Position numbers and translations under genes: made by a program
DNA from: a virus
Strand: one strand, 5' to 3'
Virus record (IMG/VR): IMGVR_UViG_3300030109_001816
Location: 1 to 22,449 of that record
Length of the DNA stretch: 22,449 nt
Notes under the pieces: generated by a model
What the model was told of the DNA's origin: nothing
The model's input: the letters and a program-made list of their open reading frames with translations, nothing else
Database searches by the model: none
In this document: positions 1-16,569 of the stretch, piece after piece
Numbering within the stretch: the stretch's first letter is position 1
How the letters are laid out: the number at the start of each line of letters is the position of its first letter

Positions 1-406
1 TCTTGAGGAAGAGCCCTCCGGTCCGGGTAGTGCACGACATGCTAGCCTCTGAATATCCAGCTAGTGGAGCAGGGAGATAGAGAGTCATTTAGTTAGGGTT
101 TTGATTGGTAGTATACAACAAGCAGTCACTGAGTAGCCAACTGTACAAAACCCGCCTGATTTGGAATCAGAAAGAAATATATACTGCCGTGTGGGGCGGT
201 TAATATTTTGTGTTTGAAAAGGCTTACACAGTTCTTGTAATGTGAAGTGTAAAAGCAATCACCACAATGATTGCACACGAACTATTTACAGGGGGTGTAT
301 TAAAGTCGAAAGACGACCGGACTTAATTGATTCCAAACCTTACATGCCAAGGAGTGGCATCAGTATAGCCCAAGATTCGGAGTCCCGGCTTGGGCTATGC
401 GCTTTT
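1..406 (+). ncRNA. Candidate structured non-coding RNA (no gene in this stretch)
   Basis: No convincing coding frame is present; the only open frame (242-436) runs through the stems described here and has no ribosome-binding site. The stretch is dense in short perfect stems: 96-103 with 146-153 (8 bp, closing a 42-base interior), 156-161/165-170 (6 bp, three-base loop), 183-188/195-200 (6 bp, one G-U), 255-261/268-274 (7 bp), 305-307/312-314 closed by a GAAA tetraloop, and 344-349/355-360 (6 bp). A possible long-range helix joins 21-26 to 317-322. The series ends in a 10-bp hairpin and T-run at 365-406. This is what a large phage ncRNA on the + strand would look like. The 5' end may lie before the window. 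I cannot match it to a named RNA family; GOLLD-like or ROOL-like phage RNAs are possibilities only. Confidence 0.45.
365..406 (+). terminator. Rho-independent terminator-like hairpin
   Basis: A perfect 10-bp stem (365-374 with 389-398) encloses a 14-base loop and is followed by GCGC and four T. The T-run lies only on the + strand side, so it would end rightward transcripts from 1-364. It also sits directly beyond the stop codon of the leftward gene 410-820 and could protect that 3' end. Confidence 0.6.
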
Positions 407-409
407 AAC

Positions 410-820
410 TTAGGATATGTATACCCAAAGTTCTAATGTACCAGTTGCAACATCTGAGCCTGGAGCCACTTGACAGGTGATATCAATAGTATCATCTGCT
501 GTGTATTCCTTTGGAGCTACGTTTGCATCTTGGTCATCGCTAACACCAGTTTGACCTGCTGTTGATCCATCAATGTAATAGTCTGGATCTGAACCGTCGC
601 CAACATCCCACACAAGGGCTGTTCCGCCGTCTAAATCGCTAGACTTAAGTATTACATCATGAACTGTTTCACCAGCAAAAACATCTACCATTTGGTACAC
701 GTCAGCTGCGTTTGGTGCCGCACTTATTGTGATTTTCCCCTTTCTAACACCTACATTTCCACTTGGGAAAGGCTTGAAAGATTGATTACCACTTACCATG
801 TCACTTGTAAAAGTTGCCAT
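410..820 (-). CDS. Hypothetical protein, probable virion or accessory protein (136 aa)
   Basis: The frame opens with ATG at 820, preceded by a GGAG-type ribosome-binding site and, further upstream, by a good sigma70-like promoter (867-895). The product is small, acidic, rich in Gly, Asp, Thr and Val, and looks like a beta-rich single domain. It starts without a signal peptide and has no membrane segment. It resembles the small conserved proteins found beside structural genes in marine phages, possibly a decoration protein, but I recognise no family motif and do not assign a function. It is the only leftward gene left of the replication block and is isolated from the other late genes, so it appears to have its own transcription unit. 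Confidence 0.75.
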   Translation of the reverse strand: MATFTSDMVSGNQSFKPFPSGNVGVRKGKITISAAPNAADVYQMVDVFAGETVHDVILKSSDLDGGTALVWDVGDGSDPDYYIDGSTAGQTGVSDDQDANVAPKEYTADDTIDITCQVAPGSDVATGTLELWVYIS

Positions 821-832
821 AATATTCTCCGT

Positions 833-861
833 TTGTTTTATTACCCATTATTAGGTAATAT
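833..861 (+). promoter_or_regulatory. Weak candidate early promoter with inverted repeat, rightward
   Basis: TTGTTT (833-838), a 17-base spacer and TAATAT (856-861) could form the promoter of the replication operon that begins at 916. An inverted repeat, ATTACC (840-845) and GGTAAT (854-859), overlaps the spacer and the -10. It could be an operator controlling both divergent units, or a hairpin in the leader of the leftward gene. The match to consensus is modest. Confidence 0.3.
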
Positions 862-866
862 CTATA

Positions 867-895
867 GTCATAAAGACAAAAAGGAGTTTTGTCAA
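867..895 (-). promoter_or_regulatory. Sigma70-like promoter, leftward, for gene 410-820
   Basis: On the minus strand a perfect -35 TTGACA (895-890) is followed after exactly 17 bases by TATGAC (872-867), a 4-of-6 match to the -10 consensus. The predicted start, near 860, lies about 40 bases upstream of the ATG at 820. Confidence 0.55.
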
Positions 896-915
896 ATATA
901 TTAAGGAGTAATTAT

Positions 916-10060: not shown

Positions 10061-11809
10061 TTATATAGTATACACTTTTAGTGCTTTTGCTTTGCCTTTT
10101 ACTTTTATAGTATCGTGCAAAGAACATTTGTCTACTTTTTGAGCTGTACGTTCTCCAATAAGTATATCTACTCCAGCTTCTTTAGTTGCACTTTCCAATC
10201 GTGCGGCTGTGTTTACAGCATCTCCTATAGCTGAATAATCAAATCTTGTATCACTACCCATATTACCCACTATAGCTTCTCCTGTGTTTACGCCTATTCC
10301 TATTGCAACAGGTTCTGGTAATTTTTTCTGTAGTTGTTTAATGGCAGTCCGCATGTCTTCGGCACAGGCGACGGCGCGTTGTTCGTGTTCATCTAAATCT
10401 AGGGGGGAGTTAAAGATGGCCATGCACGCGTCGCCTATGAACTTATCAACCATACCCCCATGTGCTTGTATGCAAGTAACTTGTTCAGTAAGCACTTTAT
10501 TCATTATTTCAGTAACTTGTTCTGGTTCTAGTTTTTCAGACAAGTTCGTAAATCCCCTGACGTCGGTGAATAAGAACGTACACGTACGCTTTTCTCCACC
10601 TAACTTTAACAAACTAGGGTCTTTCTGCAATCTTGCAATCTGTCGGGGATCTAAATAATGTTCAAACTGTTTTTTAATTTGTTGTCTTAGTTTGTATTGT
10701 TCCCCAAACCTTAACCAAAATTCTTGTACTGATATAAGTGTTATTGATACTATACTATAACTAAAGTCTATAAGTATATTATTTCGTGCAGAAAATAGAG
10801 CTCCGGTAACAAGCACGACATACATAAACGCAACTCCTACCATAGAAGCTACAACAGGTGTGTTACGTACTATAAGCACTAATAATAATAAAGACCCTAT
10901 TAATATAAGTAATTCATATAATAAAGAAAGCCCGGGTATTGCAGGTACATCTACAGTCATACTCTCAGCCAAAGCCGCCTGCACGTAATGTGGATACTTT
11001 AAACCGTCAGGCGTGGCTATTTGAGGCATTACACCTTTTGCACTAACACCTACAAACACAAATTTATTTTTAACATTCATTTCATCTAAAGTGGTGCTTG
11101 GAGTATCAATCCAAGAAACCCATCTACGTCCAATGCTATCTACTGGTATCTGTGCATACCCAGCTACAGTAATCTCTTCTATTTGACCTTGCTGTCCTTT
11201 AATTATATAAGTATCCGCACCTGCTACCATTTTAATAACTTGCACACCAAAAGACGGAGTCCAACCATCTGGTGTTTGTAATAATAAAGGTAAACGTCTT
11301 ACTAAGTTATCTACATCTGTTCGTGCAACGGCCAGGCCTTGGTAAGTAGACTCTGCTAGCACGGGCACATTTCCAATAACACCTTGAGACTGAATGCCTT
11401 GTATAGGTTTTCCGTCTCCTAATATAACTGTGCCTGTAGTTGGCGCGTGAGAAGCCCCGCCTTCAAAGGTAGCAATAACGCTTGGTATTTGTAAAAGAGC
11501 ATCTGCAAATGCTTCATCTCCACCGAATCTATCTGCTTGTGGAAAAGCAACAACCCAACCTACACCTAAAGCTCCTGCTTCCATAAGGTCTAATTGAATA
11601 CGTGCGAGATCCTGACGAGGGTACGGCCACCCGCCCGCAAGTGCTACATCTTCTTCTGTTATATCTAACGTGGTAAACCAACCAGATGGTTCTGGTGTTT
11701 GCACGAGCGCGTCAAATGTTTTTAATTTAAGCACCTCTAATGCCTGCCAATTAAATAATAAAGGCAGACAAAGTATTGGTATACTAACTAGTGCTATCCA
11801 TTTCTTCAT
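10061..11809 (-). CDS. CHASE2-domain class III adenylate cyclase
   Basis: This 582-aa inner-membrane sensor should make cAMP from ATP. After an N-terminal membrane anchor (about 4-21) a CHASE2 sensory domain faces the periplasm (about 25-290; GGWPYPRQ at 59-66). Three membrane helices follow (about 295-365), then a linker helix and a class III cyclase domain (about 405-582). All catalytic residues are there: metal-binding D416 (FTDVRGFT) and D460 (FIGDAC), ATP-selecting K456 and D524 (FDYSAIGD), and N533/R537 (VNTAAR). Lys plus Asp at the selectivity positions indicates ATP, not GTP. In cellular genomes CHASE2 cyclases are often beside FecR-domain genes, and here a FecR gene is two genes upstream. 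The start overlaps the end of the methyltransferase gene by 26 bases. Confidence 0.95.
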   Translation of the reverse strand: MKKWIALVSIPILCLPLLFNWQALEVLKLKTFDALVQTPEPSGWFTTLDITEEDVALAGGWPYPRQDLARIQLDLMEAGALGVGWVVAFPQADRFGGDEAFADALLQIPSVIATFEGGASHAPTTGTVILGDGKPIQGIQSQGVIGNVPVLAESTYQGLAVARTDVDNLVRRLPLLLQTPDGWTPSFGVQVIKMVAGADTYIIKGQQGQIEEITVAGYAQIPVDSIGRRWVSWIDTPSTTLDEMNVKNKFVFVGVSAKGVMPQIATPDGLKYPHYVQAALAESMTVDVPAIPGLSLLYELLILIGSLLLLVLIVRNTPVVASMVGVAFMYVVLVTGALFSARNNILIDFSYSIVSITLISVQEFWLRFGEQYKLRQQIKKQFEHYLDPRQIARLQKDPSLLKLGGEKRTCTFLFTDVRGFTNLSEKLEPEQVTEIMNKVLTEQVTCIQAHGGMVDKFIGDACMAIFNSPLDLDEHEQRAVACAEDMRTAIKQLQKKLPEPVAIGIGVNTGEAIVGNMGSDTRFDYSAIGDAVNTAARLESATKEAGVDILIGERTAQKVDKCSLHDTIKVKGKAKALKVYTI

Positions 11810-13247
11810 TCGCTATCGCTATTCCTATATGATAAATTATTTGAGGTACTATAGCATTTCCTAGTGATTTAAGTCTGTCCACCCTATTGGGTATCCCATG
11901 AGCCACTCTACCCACTGCGGGTTCAAACTCCCACTGCTTTTTTTGGAAGTGTGCTTCATAGCCACTTTCTCCTCCAAGTTGTGCTTGTATCCCCTGTTGT
12001 TCTCCATTGCCTTGTTTACTGTCTCCATCGACATGCTCATCCCCACTGAGCTCCTTGGCGTCGGCCATAGTTCCTGAGACTTCCACTCTATCGATGTCAA
12101 CGTCGTTAGCTCCTTGTCGTACTTCACTTCCTTCAAGTGTGGTTTTATCATCTCCCAGTCCTCTATTGTTGGGTGACTGAACCCCGCTTTGTCCTTTCTG
12201 AACCAATGTTCTACTGTTGTTTTCTTTATCCCCGTCTTTTCCGCTAGCTCTTTGGCTGTCGTCTGACTTCTCAGATAAGTCACAAACTCTTGTTGTTCTG
12301 GAAGGTTCTCCCTTTCCACCATCTGATGATTTTGATAATGTTCCATCAATTTTGGATTCTTTAGTATCTCCTCCATCATCACTTCGTCCGCTAGACTCTT
12401 CTGTATTGAAGCTCCTGACGCCCTGTGCGTCTTCCCCTGTAGCATTTTCGTCGCATGTTTTAGAGAGTCTTCCTTTGTGTCCATCGTTGTTGGTGTTCGC
12501 CACGTCTTCTCCACTAGTGCTACTTTGTCCGCTAAATTCAGACTGTGACTGTCCTTGCCATCCTTCGTCAATCTCCTGCCTGACTCCGTCAGTTTCGCAT
12601 TCGGGTGTTCTATTGTGTCCTGTGTCGTTGGTGTTGGCCACATCAAGTTGGGGTGTGCTACTTGGTCGTTCAAGCTTATTGGCATCCCCTTCTCTAATTT
12701 CATTTTCATTCGTTCCTTGCTCGACGGCCCCCTGTCGCAATGTGCGTCTGGTGTCCTCCACACATTTTCCAATGATCCAGACTCTGTCTCTTCTGTGGGG
12801 AGCTTCGATACCGCAAGCTGGAATAACAAACGATTGCGTGGCGTAACCTTCTGTTTCCAAGTCAAGGCATACATCGTCGAGTGCCACGTTGACGAAGCCA
12901 CCAACGTTTTCGACAACGACCCAAGTGGGTGTTTTTTGTTTAATAATTTCAAACATGTACGGCCAGAGGTGTCTATCGTCTTCCTTACCTTTTTTTCGGC
13001 CCGCAACGCTGAACGGCTGGCATGGGATCCCACCGCAGATGAGGTCAAATTCTTCTTGGATTTTTTCTGGGTCATTTCCTAACTCCTTTAGGTCATTATA
13101 TATTGGCACATCAGGCCAATGTTTATTTAATACTTTTTTACAGAATGACTCATTTTCACAAAACGCTACTGTTTCGTATTTCCCTGTGCTTTCTAGCCCT
13201 AAACTAAACCCGCCTATGCCAGAACAAATATCAAATACTTTTATCAT
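11784..13247 (-). CDS. C5 cytosine DNA methyltransferase (487 aa)
   Basis: This enzyme would methylate cytosine at C5, probably shielding phage DNA from host restriction. Motif I is FDICSGIGGF (5-14), motif IV GGIPCQPFS with catalytic C76, motif VI VVENV (E113), motif VIII HRRDRVWIIG (151-160), and motif X near the end is RLKSLGNAIVPQ. The roughly 280 residues between VIII and X, where target recognition lies, are unusually polar and low in hydrophobic residues, with recurring VANT/MADA-type segments at about 163, 201, 248 and 393. That stretch is also read in another frame as a plausible protein (11861-13075). The ATG overlaps the FecR stop (ATGA) and has AAGGAAGTGG upstream. G+C is high here: hand counts give 32/60 and 28/60 in two lines, against 15/60 in the FecR gene. 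Confidence 0.93.
   Translation of the reverse strand: MIKVFDICSGIGGFSLGLESTGKYETVAFCENESFCKKVLNKHWPDVPIYNDLKELGNDPEKIQEEFDLICGGIPCQPFSVAGRKKGKEDDRHLWPYMFEIIKQKTPTWVVVENVGGFVNVALDDVCLDLETEGYATQSFVIPACGIEAPHRRDRVWIIGKCVEDTRRTLRQGAVEQGTNENEIREGDANKLERPSSTPQLDVANTNDTGHNRTPECETDGVRQEIDEGWQGQSQSEFSGQSSTSGEDVANTNNDGHKGRLSKTCDENATGEDAQGVRSFNTEESSGRSDDGGDTKESKIDGTLSKSSDGGKGEPSRTTRVCDLSEKSDDSQRASGKDGDKENNSRTLVQKGQSGVQSPNNRGLGDDKTTLEGSEVRQGANDVDIDRVEVSGTMADAKELSGDEHVDGDSKQGNGEQQGIQAQLGGESGYEAHFQKKQWEFEPAVGRVAHGIPNRVDRLKSLGNAIVPQIIYHIGIAIANEEMDSTS
11861..13075 (-). CDS. Overprinted protein inside the methyltransferase gene (404 aa, +1 frame)
   Basis: This frame lies wholly inside the methyltransferase gene, one base out of phase. 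Its ATG at 13075 has AAAGGAG (13083-13089) exactly 7 bases upstream, among the best sites in the window. The product looks like folded protein: a TWKQKVTPRNRLLFQL segment, four W-(R/P)-T-P segments (WRTPDA, WPTPTT, WRTPTT, WPTPRS), a helix-turn-helix (AKELAEKTGIKKTTVEHWF) and a C-terminal LNPQWVEWLMGYPIGW. I recall these motifs recurring in phage proteins annotated as DNA methylase-related, but cannot check. Each WxTP lies on the DNA that reads V(A/E)(N/D)T or MADA in the methyltransferase frame. It could be a DNA-binding partner or alternative recognition subunit, or the C-terminus of a frameshifted methyltransferase. Antisense open frames here show that openness alone proves little. Confidence 0.6.
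   Translation of the reverse strand: MTQKKSKKNLTSSAVGSHASRSALRAEKKVRKTIDTSGRTCLKLLNKKHPLGSLSKTLVASSTWHSTMYALTWKQKVTPRNRLLFQLAVSKLPTEETESGSLENVWRTPDAHCDRGPSSKERMKMKLEKGMPISLNDQVAHPNLMWPTPTTQDTIEHPNAKLTESGRRLTKDGKDSHSLNLADKVALVEKTWRTPTTMDTKEDSLKHATKMLQGKTHRASGASIQKSLADEVMMEEILKNPKLMEHYQNHQMVERENLPEQQEFVTYLRSQTTAKELAEKTGIKKTTVEHWFRKDKAGFSHPTIEDWEMIKPHLKEVKYDKELTTLTSIEWKSQELWPTPRSSVGMSMSMETVNKAMENNRGYKHNLEEKVAMKHTSKKSSGSLNPQWVEWLMGYPIGWTDLNH
13083..13089 (-). promoter_or_regulatory. Internal ribosome-binding site for the overprinted gene
   Basis: Minus-strand AAAGGAG, 7 bases before the ATG at 13075, inside the methyltransferase coding sequence. In the methyltransferase frame these bases encode part of DLKEL, which does not force this nucleotide choice. 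Confidence 0.6.
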
Positions 13248-14332
13248 CCACTTCCTTGTGTGATTGTAATAGTAGAGTTACCTCCACCATTAACTATTAT
13301 TTGTTGGTATTTACCATCCTGTACCAATATTATAGTATATCCTTGCGAACTATTCACGGTCAACTGAGCGTTTTGGTTAACCTTTCTTTGAAACGCAATT
13401 TGTTCTCCTTGTAATAAAGTTATTATTTGTGTTTGTAAATCTTGTCCTATTTCTGTACCTTGTATTGAAGTACCTGTAGTTAACTTTTTAGTATCTAATT
13501 CGTCTACTTCTTCTATTATTGCTAATAAATCTTCAAAGAAATTTACATCTAAGAAGTTTATATCTAGCTCTGTAAACTCTAAAGTATCTTCAGCTAAAGC
13601 ATCTGTATCTAATTCATTAAACTCTAAATAGTCTATATCTAATATAGCCCCGCTATCTGCTACGGCACTTGTGGATGATTCTGTGGATAACTTTTGTTCG
13701 TCCGGGGGAGTAACAATAAGCATGTTATCTATAATATCTAGAGTAAGGTCAAGTATTACAGGTTTACTAGGTGCAGTTTCCCACACCTCTACAGTAGTAG
13801 CTTGGTAAGGTTTATTAAGAGTAACGCTACCTGTTGCGGTAGTTACAAGTATTTCTCCACTAGATATGCCGTTTTCGTCTGGTAACAATATAATTAAACT
13901 ACGACCTAGTTCGTCTACCGTGCAAGTAAAATCAGTCCCTCTAATCGCTATATCTGCGGTAGGTGTAGATAGTCGTATTCTACTTTTGTCTATTCTATTT
14001 AATCTACTACTAACAAATCTAGCTGTGCCACTAGCAAACTGTAACGCCATTTCTCCTTTTGAAGGGTCAGGGTCAAACACATATTTAGTAATAATAAGTT
14101 TAGAATTTTCTGTTAATCGTACAACAGAGTCGTCCAGAAAAGTAATTCCTACACGACCTGTAGTAGTACGGACATCATCCATTTGTTGGATGCCAAAGTC
14201 TAACTCAGCCCCATAAGGCTTATCTCGTATTACTTCAGCAGAGCCATTTAGCTCAGAGATGTCTCCAATGTTAACAGCTTGTGCTTGTACCGCCGTCGTT
14301 TTGAACAACGCACACAGTACCATTGTTGCCAT
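13244..14332 (-). CDS. FecR-domain exported protein with curlin-like C-terminus
   Basis: The protein has a signal peptide (MATMVLCALFKTTAVQAQA) followed by a FecR domain (NIGDISELNGSAEVIR, VRTTTGRVGITFLDDSVVRL, then ADIAIRGTDFTC), a long acidic region rich in Asp/Glu/Leu, and a C-terminal beta-rich end (QIIVNGGGNSTITITQ) that resembles a curlin repeat (Gln ... Gly-x-Gly-Asn ... Gln). FecR domains without a sigma-factor partner are often periplasmic and are found beside CHASE2 cyclases. It lies between the curlin gene and the methyltransferase; its stop overlaps the latter's ATG (ATGA). ATG at 14332 gives a normal signal peptide; a TTG at 14449 or ATG at 14428 are possible but overlap the curlin gene by 160-180 bases. 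It may sense or assemble the curli-like product (inference). Confidence 0.85.
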   Translation of the reverse strand: MATMVLCALFKTTAVQAQAVNIGDISELNGSAEVIRDKPYGAELDFGIQQMDDVRTTTGRVGITFLDDSVVRLTENSKLIITKYVFDPDPSKGEMALQFASGTARFVSSRLNRIDKSRIRLSTPTADIAIRGTDFTCTVDELGRSLIILLPDENGISSGEILVTTATGSVTLNKPYQATTVEVWETAPSKPVILDLTLDIIDNMLIVTPPDEQKLSTESSTSAVADSGAILDIDYLEFNELDTDALAEDTLEFTELDINFLDVNFFEDLLAIIEEVDELDTKKLTTGTSIQGTEIGQDLQTQIITLLQGEQIAFQRKVNQNAQLTVNSSQGYTIILVQDGKYQQIIVNGGGNSTITITQGSG

Positions 14333-14969
14333 TAGACAAAATTTTGAGCCAGTCACTAGCCAATGTAGATGATTGCGTAACGTTAAAAGTCCTGCTGTTG
14401 CCTGTTTGGTCAAGATAGAAATATCCATTTTGATATCCACTTCCGTCAAATGTTATTGAGTTAGAGTCCCCATCTACATCTACATAAGATGTAGCTAGGT
14501 CGTAATCAATGTCGAAATCAAACGTATTGCTATCTCCATTAATTATCCAGTCTAAGTCAAGTGTCGAAGCTAAAGCACCAGTACCAACATCTAAATCAAA
14601 GTCGTTACTAGAACCAGTTACGTCTACATTGTAGTTACCTGAATCTGCACCGTAAGTATTAGTTGGGTCTACTTGTATATTAAATTCGTTGCTATCTCCA
14701 TCAAATTCAAAAAATCCTGTAATGCTATCTCCTAAGATATCACCTACGAATTTGTTTGAACTACCTATTTGATTTATATCTAAAGTAAGATTTAAACCAT
14801 CAAGGTCGAGCGCGGTCATAGTACCACTAACAGCGTTTAGTCCACCAATAATGTTAGACGAACCTAACTGTTCTATATCTATGTTTGCGTTATTCCCGGA
14901 TTGATCGATATACACTTCATTGTCAGCATACAAAAAACCAACTAATAGTAAGGGTAAAAGTTTTTTCAT
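14271..14969 (-). CDS. Curlin-repeat (CsgA/CsgB-like) secreted protein (232 aa)
   Basis: A signal peptide (cleavage after about residue 15, FLYA) is followed by eight degenerate curlin-type motifs: QSGNNAN (23-29), QLGSSN (34-39), QIGSSN (67-72), DGDSN (90-94), TGSSN (118-122), NGDSN (144-148), DGDSN (166-170) and QTGNS (188-192). Between them lie alternating hydrophobic and polar strands, as in beta-helical amyloid subunits. Unlike CsgA, the leading Gln is often Asp, Thr or Asn, and spacing varies from about 22 to 33. Cys220 and Cys232 could form a disulfide. It lies directly downstream of csgG (ATGA overlap, GGAG site), as substrate and pore are expected to be co-expressed. It would be exported to the periplasm and probably through the CsgG pore; whether it makes fibres is untested. 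Confidence 0.85.
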   Translation of the reverse strand: MKKLLPLLLVGFLYADNEVYIDQSGNNANIDIEQLGSSNIIGGLNAVSGTMTALDLDGLNLTLDINQIGSSNKFVGDILGDSITGFFEFDGDSNEFNIQVDPTNTYGADSGNYNVDVTGSSNDFDLDVGTGALASTLDLDWIINGDSNTFDFDIDYDLATSYVDVDGDSNSITFDGSGYQNGYFYLDQTGNSRTFNVTQSSTLASDWLKILSNGNNGTVCVVQNDGGTSTSC

Positions 14970-15781
14970 TTATAACTCCAATATCCAGCTTGTTCACCCT
15001 CCTTGATTATTTCTAATACGGCTGTTTCTATAGCGGAACGCAAAGCAAGTCCTCCAGACTCATTTCGCACCACGCCACTTTCTATCTCTACTAATTCAGT
15101 ACCAGCTTCGATAAAGCGGAACACGTCGTCTGTTAATGATACACTAAGAACAGTCTTTGATACTAATTTTTCTAACAACACTTGGCCAGAATTTACAGAC
15201 ACAAGACGTAATTGTATTGTTAAAGAGTCTGTTCTGTAAGCTTTAGATATACCAATTCCTAAATACCTAGCACCTGCGCCACCAGATGTTACATTAGATT
15301 CGTAAGAAACTACTGCTCCCTCTAATAATAACCCTGCAAATAACAAGGTACCTATTTTGGTATCGTCTTTGTTTTCTGTTCTACCGCTACGAATTATCTG
15401 ACGTTCTTTAGTTAAATGGTCTAATCCAGCACGCTCAACCACTGTAAAAAAACCACCATTTGCTTTGCACGCGCCTTTTAGTGCTTTGATAAGATAAGCG
15501 CTAGGCTGTTGAGTTATAGCTGTAGAAAAACTAGCATACATAGAGTTGCTAAGTCTTTGACCTGTTTGGTCAGTAAAGGCACTTCCGTACACAGCTACAG
15601 TAGGCATACGTTCAGGTGCACGACAGTTGTGCAAGTCAGATATGACTAGCTCTTGTATGCTTGCTGATTCGATTTTCCGTATCGGAGCTATGTTATTTTC
15701 TATGGGGTCTTCTATTAATAATGAAGCGCAACTAGAAAGTAAAAGAACCGATAGGTACCGTAATTTCTGTAGTATTGCCAT
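14966..15781 (-). CDS. csgG: CsgG-type curli secretion channel lipoprotein (271 aa)
   Basis: CsgG makes the nine-fold outer-membrane channel that exports curli subunits. The match is strong: a lipoprotein signal with LSSC (lipidated Cys18), the core YESNVTSGGAGARYLGIG (160-177) nearly identical to the Escherichia coli segment, then LRLVSVNSGQVL, KTVLS, VFRFIEA and the C-terminal SAIETAVLEII. Length is close to the 277 aa of the E. coli precursor. The constriction loop keeps the equivalent of Phe56 (F85), but Asn55 appears to be Ser84 and Tyr51 is not at its exact position (a Tyr lies at 82), so the pore entrance may differ. The ATG at 15781 overlaps the csgF gene by 50 bases, and the stop overlaps the curlin gene's ATG. 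It would be inserted in the host outer membrane. Confidence 0.95.
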   Translation of the reverse strand: MAILQKLRYLSVLLLSSCASLLIEDPIENNIAPIRKIESASIQELVISDLHNCRAPERMPTVAVYGSAFTDQTGQRLSNSMYASFSTAITQQPSAYLIKALKGACKANGGFFTVVERAGLDHLTKERQIIRSGRTENKDDTKIGTLLFAGLLLEGAVVSYESNVTSGGAGARYLGIGISKAYRTDSLTIQLRLVSVNSGQVLLEKLVSKTVLSVSLTDDVFRFIEAGTELVEIESGVVRNESGGLALRSAIETAVLEIIKEGEQAGYWSYK

Positions 15782-16238
15782 CTGGGTCTGTTATCTTTAA
15801 AGTAATCATTGTACCATCTTCACTTACACTGTATTCAATAGTGTTGCCCATAAGTTCTATAATTCCACTTGTAGAAGGGGTATCTCCAAACAAAGCATCT
15901 ACTAACTGTCTAGACAGTTGTGCGTATATTCTAGATTCTAAGTTACGTATAAACCTAGCAAGTGTAGTATTTTCTGCATCTCTTTTAAGCTGTTCTTTAT
16001 AAGCTTTTAGTTCTGCTTTAATATTTTCTTTTCTATTAAACTCTTGGTTTTCAATAGTAAGGTAATGAGAACTAGTGCCTACTCCACTAAAACTAGGGTT
16101 TTTAAAACCATGTACTATTTGGTCTGCTTTTAGGTTTACAGCAATAATCCCAAAAAACAATACAAAACCTATAAAAACTAAAGTTACTGTAAGTCTATAT
16201 TTTTCTAGTTCTTCTTTGTTAATCTTTTCTTTGGTCAT
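15732..16238 (-). CDS. csgF: CsgF-type curli accessory protein (168 aa)
   Basis: CsgF caps the CsgG channel and links it to the nucleator. The N-terminal segment of the mature form, IVHGFKNPSFSG, matches the FRNPNFGG segment of CsgF that inserts in the CsgG constriction, and the C-terminal YSVSEDGTMITLKITDPDGN matches the end of CsgF. Before it lies a membrane segment (about 15-38) ending in LKA, a plausible signal peptidase site, after a long charged stretch. A predicted helix with Arg/Lys/Glu lies between the two matches. ATG at 16238 was preferred over a TTG at 16256 for its AGAG-type site close upstream. The gene overlaps the membrane protein upstream by about 20 bases and csgG downstream by 50. 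Confidence 0.85.
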   Translation of the reverse strand: MTKEKINKEELEKYRLTVTLVFIGFVLFFGIIAVNLKADQIVHGFKNPSFSGVGTSSHYLTIENQEFNRKENIKAELKAYKEQLKRDAENTTLARFIRNLESRIYAQLSRQLVDALFGDTPSTSGIIELMGNTIEYSVSEDGTMITLKITDPDGNTTEITVPIGSFTF

Positions 16239-16569
16239 CTCTATCCGCCTTAGCAATTTTGTTGCTATCTATAAGTTGAGGTACTCCTAGTATAGTCTTG
16301 ATAAGTGTATCTTGTCTAATAATCTCATTGTCTAAGCTACGTATTCTGTCTATCAAAGCTACTAATATACCGTGCTGTGAATCAAGTTTTGTGCCTAGTC
16401 GTTCTTCTATTGCTGCTATTTGGTTTTCTACTTTTTCATCAACAGTATCTAATTTAGTTTCCATGCCATCTACAATACGCATAATAAGTTTATATATAAA
16501 CCACCCTAAACCAAGTGCGGCTGCAATAGGAAATCCAACTTCTTGTATTACGGTAACTGCTGATTCCAT
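16219..16569 (-). CDS. Single-pass membrane protein with coiled coil (116 aa)
   Basis: A hydrophobic helix near the N-terminus (about 10-31, GFPIAAALGLGWFIYKLI) is followed by a charged heptad-like helix (about 34-85, with ETKLDTVDEKV and LDSQHGILVALIDRIRSL), then a polar tail. Its topology is that of small phage membrane proteins next to holins, such as XhlA-like or Rz-like partners, but no specific family motif is seen. ATG overlaps the upstream TGA. It lies between the holin-like gene and csgF, with which it overlaps, so it may belong to the lysis or envelope step. Confidence 0.7.
   Translation of the reverse strand: MESAVTVIQEVGFPIAAALGLGWFIYKLIMRIVDGMETKLDTVDEKVENQIAAIEERLGTKLDSQHGILVALIDRIRSLDNEIIRQDTLIKTILGVPQLIDSNKIAKADRDDQRKD

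Follow-up and report, generated by a model that had tools for sequence, protein, structure and literature searches.

A modular array of structured RNA cassettes at the 3' end of a phage operon, with palindromes predicted to pair between molecules

OLE, ROOL and GOLLD are structured RNAs of phages or bacteria that form homo-oligomers, and in OLE (L9.3) and GOLLD (L21a) palindromes that change at adjacent loop nucleotides have been taken as covariation between molecules (PMC12286853). Self-complementary loop sequences likewise dimerise retroviral RNA at the dimer-initiation palindromes (PMC5874298, PMC7357161). In phage PhiTE, pseudo-ToxI, an RNA that mimics an antitoxin and evolves through expansion and recombination, neutralises a type III toxin-antitoxin defence of the host in trans (PMC3475682).

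Here we describe a set of small phage RNA cassettes that resemble, and differ from, each of these systems. The argument for intermolecular pairing is the same adjacent-position covariation as for OLE and GOLLD. Whereas OLE, ROOL and GOLLD are single RNAs of hundreds of nucleotides with specific folds, the cassettes are swappable modules of 60-180 nt with unrelated sequences, and their palindrome is placed, unlike in those RNAs, in the first loop of a pseudoknot. The retroviral palindrome lies in a hairpin loop of genomic RNA, whereas that of the cassettes belongs to the pseudoknot loop of a small phage RNA and differs widely from phage to phage. ToxI, which is pseudoknotted, is a short tandem repeat that copies a host antitoxin, whereas the cassettes are longer and are not tandem repeats; tandem identical repeats were absent from all 47 distinct arrays.

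The array and its genomic setting

The window, that is, the whole stretch of DNA analysed, is the entire IMG/VR contig IMGVR_UViG_3300030109_001816, a linear marine phage fragment of 22,449 bases. Its + strand carries genes for DNA polymerase A, a primase/helicase-like protein, an exonuclease and a helicase, and its - strand the tail, lysis and structural genes; the polymerase shares ~34% identity with its counterparts in Pseudomonas phages phiR18 and KPP25. The features discussed are listed in Table 1. Several lie outside the RNA region. The curli-secretion genes CsgG and CsgF, reported in marine phages (PMC9004378), adjoin a gene for a short secreted protein with repeats, the CHASE2/cyclase protein, encoded together with a FecR-domain protein, is an unusual phage cargo, and most of the C5 cytosine methylase ORF is overlapped by a 404-aa ORF in another frame of the same strand.

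Table 1. Positions of RNA elements and selected genes in the window
Feature	Position	Strand	Details
Cassette A	1-86	+	About 91 nt; contig end removes first 5 nt
Cassette A helices	P1 remnant 1-3/79-81; P2 14-17/71-74; hairpin P3 42-46/60-64	+	
Cassette A pseudoknot strands	25-29 and 54-58	+	GGGTA and TATCC
Cassette A palindrome	30-35	+	GTGCAC, 6 nt
Cassette B	96-156	+	blastn and nhmmer
Cassette B closing helix	96-103/146-153	+	GGGTTTTG / CAAAACCC
Cassette B inner parts	Palindrome 111-116; P3 122-126/140-144; pseudoknot 106-108/137-139	+	Palindrome GTATAC; pseudoknot TGG/CCA
Cassette X	158-338	+	About 180 nt; three copies (window, L004, L194)
Cassette X closing helix	160-169/328-337	+	TTTGGAATCA / TGATTCCAAA, 10 bp
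Cassette X hairpins	183-200, 255-274, 305-314	+	305-314 GAAA-capped
Element T	344-406	+	Conserved double-hairpin 3' element; in 47 distinct arrays, at operon 3' end
T hairpin 1	344-360	+	ATGCC AAGGAGT GGCAT
T hairpin 2 and short U-tract	365-406	+	ATAGCCCAAG 365-374 / CTTGGGCTAT 389-398
Convergent gene, virion structural protein	410-820	-	136 aa; PHROG 486, weak match
CHASE2 domain and adenylate/guanylate cyclase protein	10061-11809	-	582 aa; Pfam 3e-26, 3e-22
C5 cytosine methylase ORF	11784-13247	-	487 aa
Overlapping ORF	11861-13075	-	404 aa
FecR-domain protein	13244-14449		
CsgG and CsgF genes	14271-16256	-	Pfam E 9e-47 (CsgG), 5e-15 (CsgF)

The + strand of 1-412 folds with -131.5 kcal/mol, better than 100/100 dinucleotide shuffles (z -3.8), and the opposite strand of the left-end region is less exceptional (z -2.2). 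The short stems on which the initial annotation had based a functional RNA are found in the sequence, but folding alone does not define the unit. We compiled about 200 IMG/VR loci for comparison; 80 surround the 410-820 structural gene, our anchor for locating the corresponding locus in relatives, and 47 surround the DNA polymerase gene. BLAST of 1-406 against these loci revealed a mosaic, in which 342-406 is kept in about 50 relatives and segments 1-90, 74-157, 89-157 or 159-406 are joined straight to 342-406 in different relatives. The modules occupy the gap between the stop codon of the operon's last small gene and the 3' element T; the operon ahead of T codes, in one relative, for an AAA ATPase and a DUF2201 metallopeptidase/VWA protein besides several small proteins.

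After removal of duplicates, 47 distinct arrays in 17 arrangements were found, with A-T the most common (18), followed by T alone (11), A-E-D-T (3) and A-C-T (2); all others occur once, including A-B-X-T (window), A-X-T (L004), X-T (L194), A-B-T (L003) and B-T (L024). Cassettes A-H and X are lost, gained and reordered ahead of T. Every cassette in these arrays lies on the T strand (56/56), no array holds the same family twice (0/47), and the 14 long records contain one copy of cassette A or none each. In some relatives the slot holds small variable protein genes, and related cassettes in other marine phages adjoin unrelated genes. Thus the left-end stretch, as read from these comparisons, is a tandem of independent 60-180-nt RNA modules that recombine separately.

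Further cassettes were seen at other positions. A second array site, in relatives without T, holds cassettes B-I-D ahead of a gene with a strong RBS (L039 11905-12185, L467 4466-4746); cassette I, about 110 nt with long perfect helices, is found in one phage only. In L219 (8500-8975), L227, L241 and L258 a conserved non-coding stretch (..GCTGTTGGAGGAGTTrGTAGTTACTTCGGAACTAGAAAACTAC..) lies directly upstream of cassette D and may be a further RNA cassette. An additional module (GGTACTTCTC..GAGAAGC then ..CAGATGCATGCC..) lies between cassettes D and J in L446 and L448.

The RNA evidence comes from IMG/VR contigs because BLAST of 50,697 named phages gave no relative of the window RNA region. At the gathering threshold neither the window nor any of 26 relative loci matched an Rfam 15 family, and relaxed thresholds gave chance matches only, none of them meaningful. 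The covariance models of GOLLD and ROOL, the large RNAs that the initial annotation had suggested searching for, were unmatched at gathering in these same sequences and, in window 1-900, even with E values up to 10; apart from possible oligomerisation there is no likeness to either. The cassettes, as judged by sequence, match no described RNA family. A hammerhead or other ribozyme was rejected for want of an Rfam match, and to our knowledge the cassette cores match no such ribozyme core. ARAGORN detected no tRNA or tmRNA in the window, and a promoter scan of the RNA region returned none of note.

Structure and covariation of the cassettes

The initial annotation had named compensating base changes in related phages as the test of a functional structured RNA, and these changes strongly support it. 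For cassette A, whose RNA start lies about 5 nt left of the window by comparison with L067, we aligned 25 distinct sequences with MAFFT, without fitting them to the structure. Standard pairs are formed in 86.4% of cells versus 23-49% with slid partners. Double-change cells number 65 versus 25 in shuffles, and the covariation score is reached by 0/500 shuffles, counts that are not probabilities as the sequences are related. Without being supplied with the structure, RNAalifold recovered P1 and P2. The covariance model R1, built without the window but including its close relative L067, matches cassette A of the window with 47.5 bits (E 2e-8). The A internal loop is conserved as TTGAsGAArAG opposite AGATA; within it, columns 12 and 16 of alignment A2 co-vary as C/A or G/G (GACGAAAAG versus GAGGAAGAG), which is not a standard pair. 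Extra matches of the A 3' strand pattern were mostly due to chance, and a repeated one receives 14.7 bits from R1.

Similar support was obtained for the other families. Cassettes D (19 sequences) and J (8 sequences) have 94.4% and 89.9% of cells paired, versus 35-55% and 28-50%, respectively, with slid partners, and for these families, too, no shuffle attained the covariation score. Together or alone, D and J occur in other contigs beside differing genes, co-directional with transcription where inspected. The B family is found in about 15 further viral contigs, where closing helices differ and P3 is compensated. Short-pattern scans for D gave mostly chance matches, as did a scan of bacterial genomes with a 15-mer of B, which was too short a pattern; the D model found no convincing match in three bacterial genomes. 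The three copies of cassette X contain four compensated pairs, all of them double changes. Two are in the closing helix, where A-U replaces G-C and C-G replaces U-A; hairpin 255-274 has one (C-G to U-A), and so has the GAAA-capped hairpin 305-314 (G-C to U-A). Both this hairpin and the closing helix had been noted in the initial annotation, and both carry compensatory changes in L194.

The gap is also free of a supported gene, as had been noticed. There is no conserved ORF, a 2-nt indel in close relatives breaks the frames of cassette X, and a coding explanation was rejected, the overlapping ORFs of 50-64 aa being unconserved and disrupted by indels. The view of 1-406 as one large structure has to be replaced by three independent modules followed by a conserved 3' element, because relatives hold A, B, X and T separately. 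A proposed long-range helix between 21-26 (GTCCGG) and 317-322 (CCGGAC) would bridge the independent cassettes A and X and is not conserved. It is probably due to chance, since cassette A occurs in L067 with no X, X is combined in L004 with another A that lacks GTCCGG, and the X of L194 lacks this CCGGAC.

In element T, hairpin 1 covaries, with ATACT..AGTAT in L026 and ATACC..GGTAT in L031. The proposed final terminator (hairpins 344-360 and 365-398) is conserved, but its U-tract is short (CTTTT), variable and weaker in several relatives, and a consensus terminator scanner did not score element T. Hairpin 2 with its U-tract is presumed to be a terminator or 3' end, the terminator reading being plausible with a weak U-tract.

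Taken together, comparison among the relatives shows that every cassette forms a structured RNA domain by itself, closed by a helix of its own. It also reveals that modular, strand-specific structured RNA, which we infer to be transcribed, is under selection in intergenic gaps as well as at a phage transcript unit's 3' end.

Palindromes and predicted dimerisation

Common to cassettes A, B and J is a pseudoknot with a self-complementary sequence in its first loop. The core of A consists, in order, of pseudoknot strand a, 0-6 nt, a perfect palindrome of 8-10 nt, a linker of nearly always 4 nt, and hairpin P3, the loop of which ends in pseudoknot strand b adjoining P3'. This descriptor is matched by 22/25 A cassettes, and a comparable score is reached by 1/200 shuffled sequences; in L102 the palindrome is present with no pseudoknot meeting the criteria. 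Cassette J has the same core as A, and the J model matches A weakly. B is arranged likewise, but its palindrome is shorter (GTATAC, GATATC). No such palindrome was found in D and X. A free descriptor search of 2.3 Mb for a pseudoknot combined with a palindrome proved too permissive to be used.

In A and J, the corresponding site, mostly 4 nt ahead of P3, is taken by eleven different perfect 8-10-nt palindromes: GCACGTGC, GCCTCGAGGC, GGACGTCC, GCATATGC, GCTATAGC, GACGCGTC, GAACCGGTTC, AGCGCGCT, GCGATCGC, GAGATCTC and GGTGCACC. A palindrome is expected by chance at 0.3% per 8-mer. Their innermost pairs are of four types, and 8 distinct central tetramers occur among the 11. The computed energy of the self-duplex is -10 to -21 kcal/mol, and only one of the palindromes has an intramolecular hairpin energy other than 0 (-2.1). 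The pattern is not uniform: the window palindromes are only 6 nt long in both A and B, that of L029 is 4 nt, the J palindrome is split by U or UU in L446, L447 and L449, and the long B variants L454 and L462 have an imperfect one.

Covariation at adjacent positions that are unable to pair in one chain, a mark of homo-oligomeric RNAs, is thus seen in these cassettes. Pairing would take place between two molecules because pairs of adjacent nucleotides cannot form within one chain, and we consider it a well-supported inference from the sequences that the A, B and J RNAs homodimerise via the palindrome, over 6-10 bp.

Proposed role and alternatives

We favour, with some reserve, the reading that 1-406 is the 3'-terminal RNA cassette array A-B-X-T of a phage operon, with domains that would self-dimerise and act in trans on a host factor. 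The array lies on the transcript strand between the operon's last stop codon and T, and the first pseudoknot loop of A, B and J would present the palindrome so that two copies of the RNA pair. Less firmly, trans action on the host factor might make the domains the RNA equivalent of small accessory or counter-defence genes. A host component is suggested as the target because the cassette sets are hypervariable and differ from phage to phage, small accessory genes share the slot, and the cassettes have no co-travelling partner gene. The precedent of PhiTE pseudo-ToxI suggests that the action is perhaps one of counter-defence (PMC3475682).

The main rival to a trans-acting role is one in cis, in which stable pseudoknotted folds in 3' UTRs or gaps block exonucleases or Rho and so determine how stable the operon mRNA is or how strongly the next gene is expressed. 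Such a role, which we regard as rather unlikely, would agree with the co-direction of every cassette with transcription, with their location between the stop codon and T or, for some, directly upstream of a gene (L039, L044, L219), and with the J closing helix of L447 and L449, which overlaps a coding gene at its end. However, the operon does not need cassettes, because 11 distinct arrays have T alone, and a simple roadblock would require no conserved internal-loop sequence, several unrelated families or varying palindrome.

That the cassettes are riboswitch-like, ligand-binding RNAs seems improbable. The conserved A internal loop, the pseudoknots and the fact that some phages have D or B ahead of genes would suit this idea, but the 47 T arrays have no gene downstream, just T and the convergent gene, the genes beside D vary between phages, and no Rfam riboswitch is matched; a consistent 5'-leader position before functionally linked genes is not observed. 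It is more improbable still that the palindromes act in DNA, as binding or recombination sites, with incidental RNA structure: although the cassettes move between genomes and a palindrome is a natural duplex-DNA site, its sequence varies freely yet stays symmetric, unlike a protein site, and it sits inside a pseudoknot with separate compensatory changes and an orientation bias of 56:0. Finally, a single large ornate phage RNA of the GOLLD or ROOL kind can hardly be credited despite the dense stems (z -3.8) and the Rfam-known large RNAs of phages (PMC12286853), since the modules recombine independently, the inter-module helix is unconserved and, whereas such RNAs are single units of several hundred nucleotides often near tRNA islands, the window has no tRNA island.

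Beyond the trans-acting reading of this array, we tentatively raise the possibility of a superfamily of small phage RNAs, each combining a pseudoknot with a phage-specific palindrome, forming dimers only with copies of itself and carried in hypervariable arrays as accessory anti-host genes. If true, the superfamily would be an RNA-only counterpart of the anti-defence islands of marine phages. Phage genomes are usually annotated as islands of proteins, and the slot described here holds protein genes or structured RNAs depending on the relative, indicating that phage accessory functions can be RNA-coded and overlooked by gene callers. Should the palindrome rule hold, natural RNA homodimerisation, which is documented for few RNAs, would gain a simple case that can be tested by sequence, and the size of a single module, about 60-100 nt, makes probing, structure determination and expression in trans practical.
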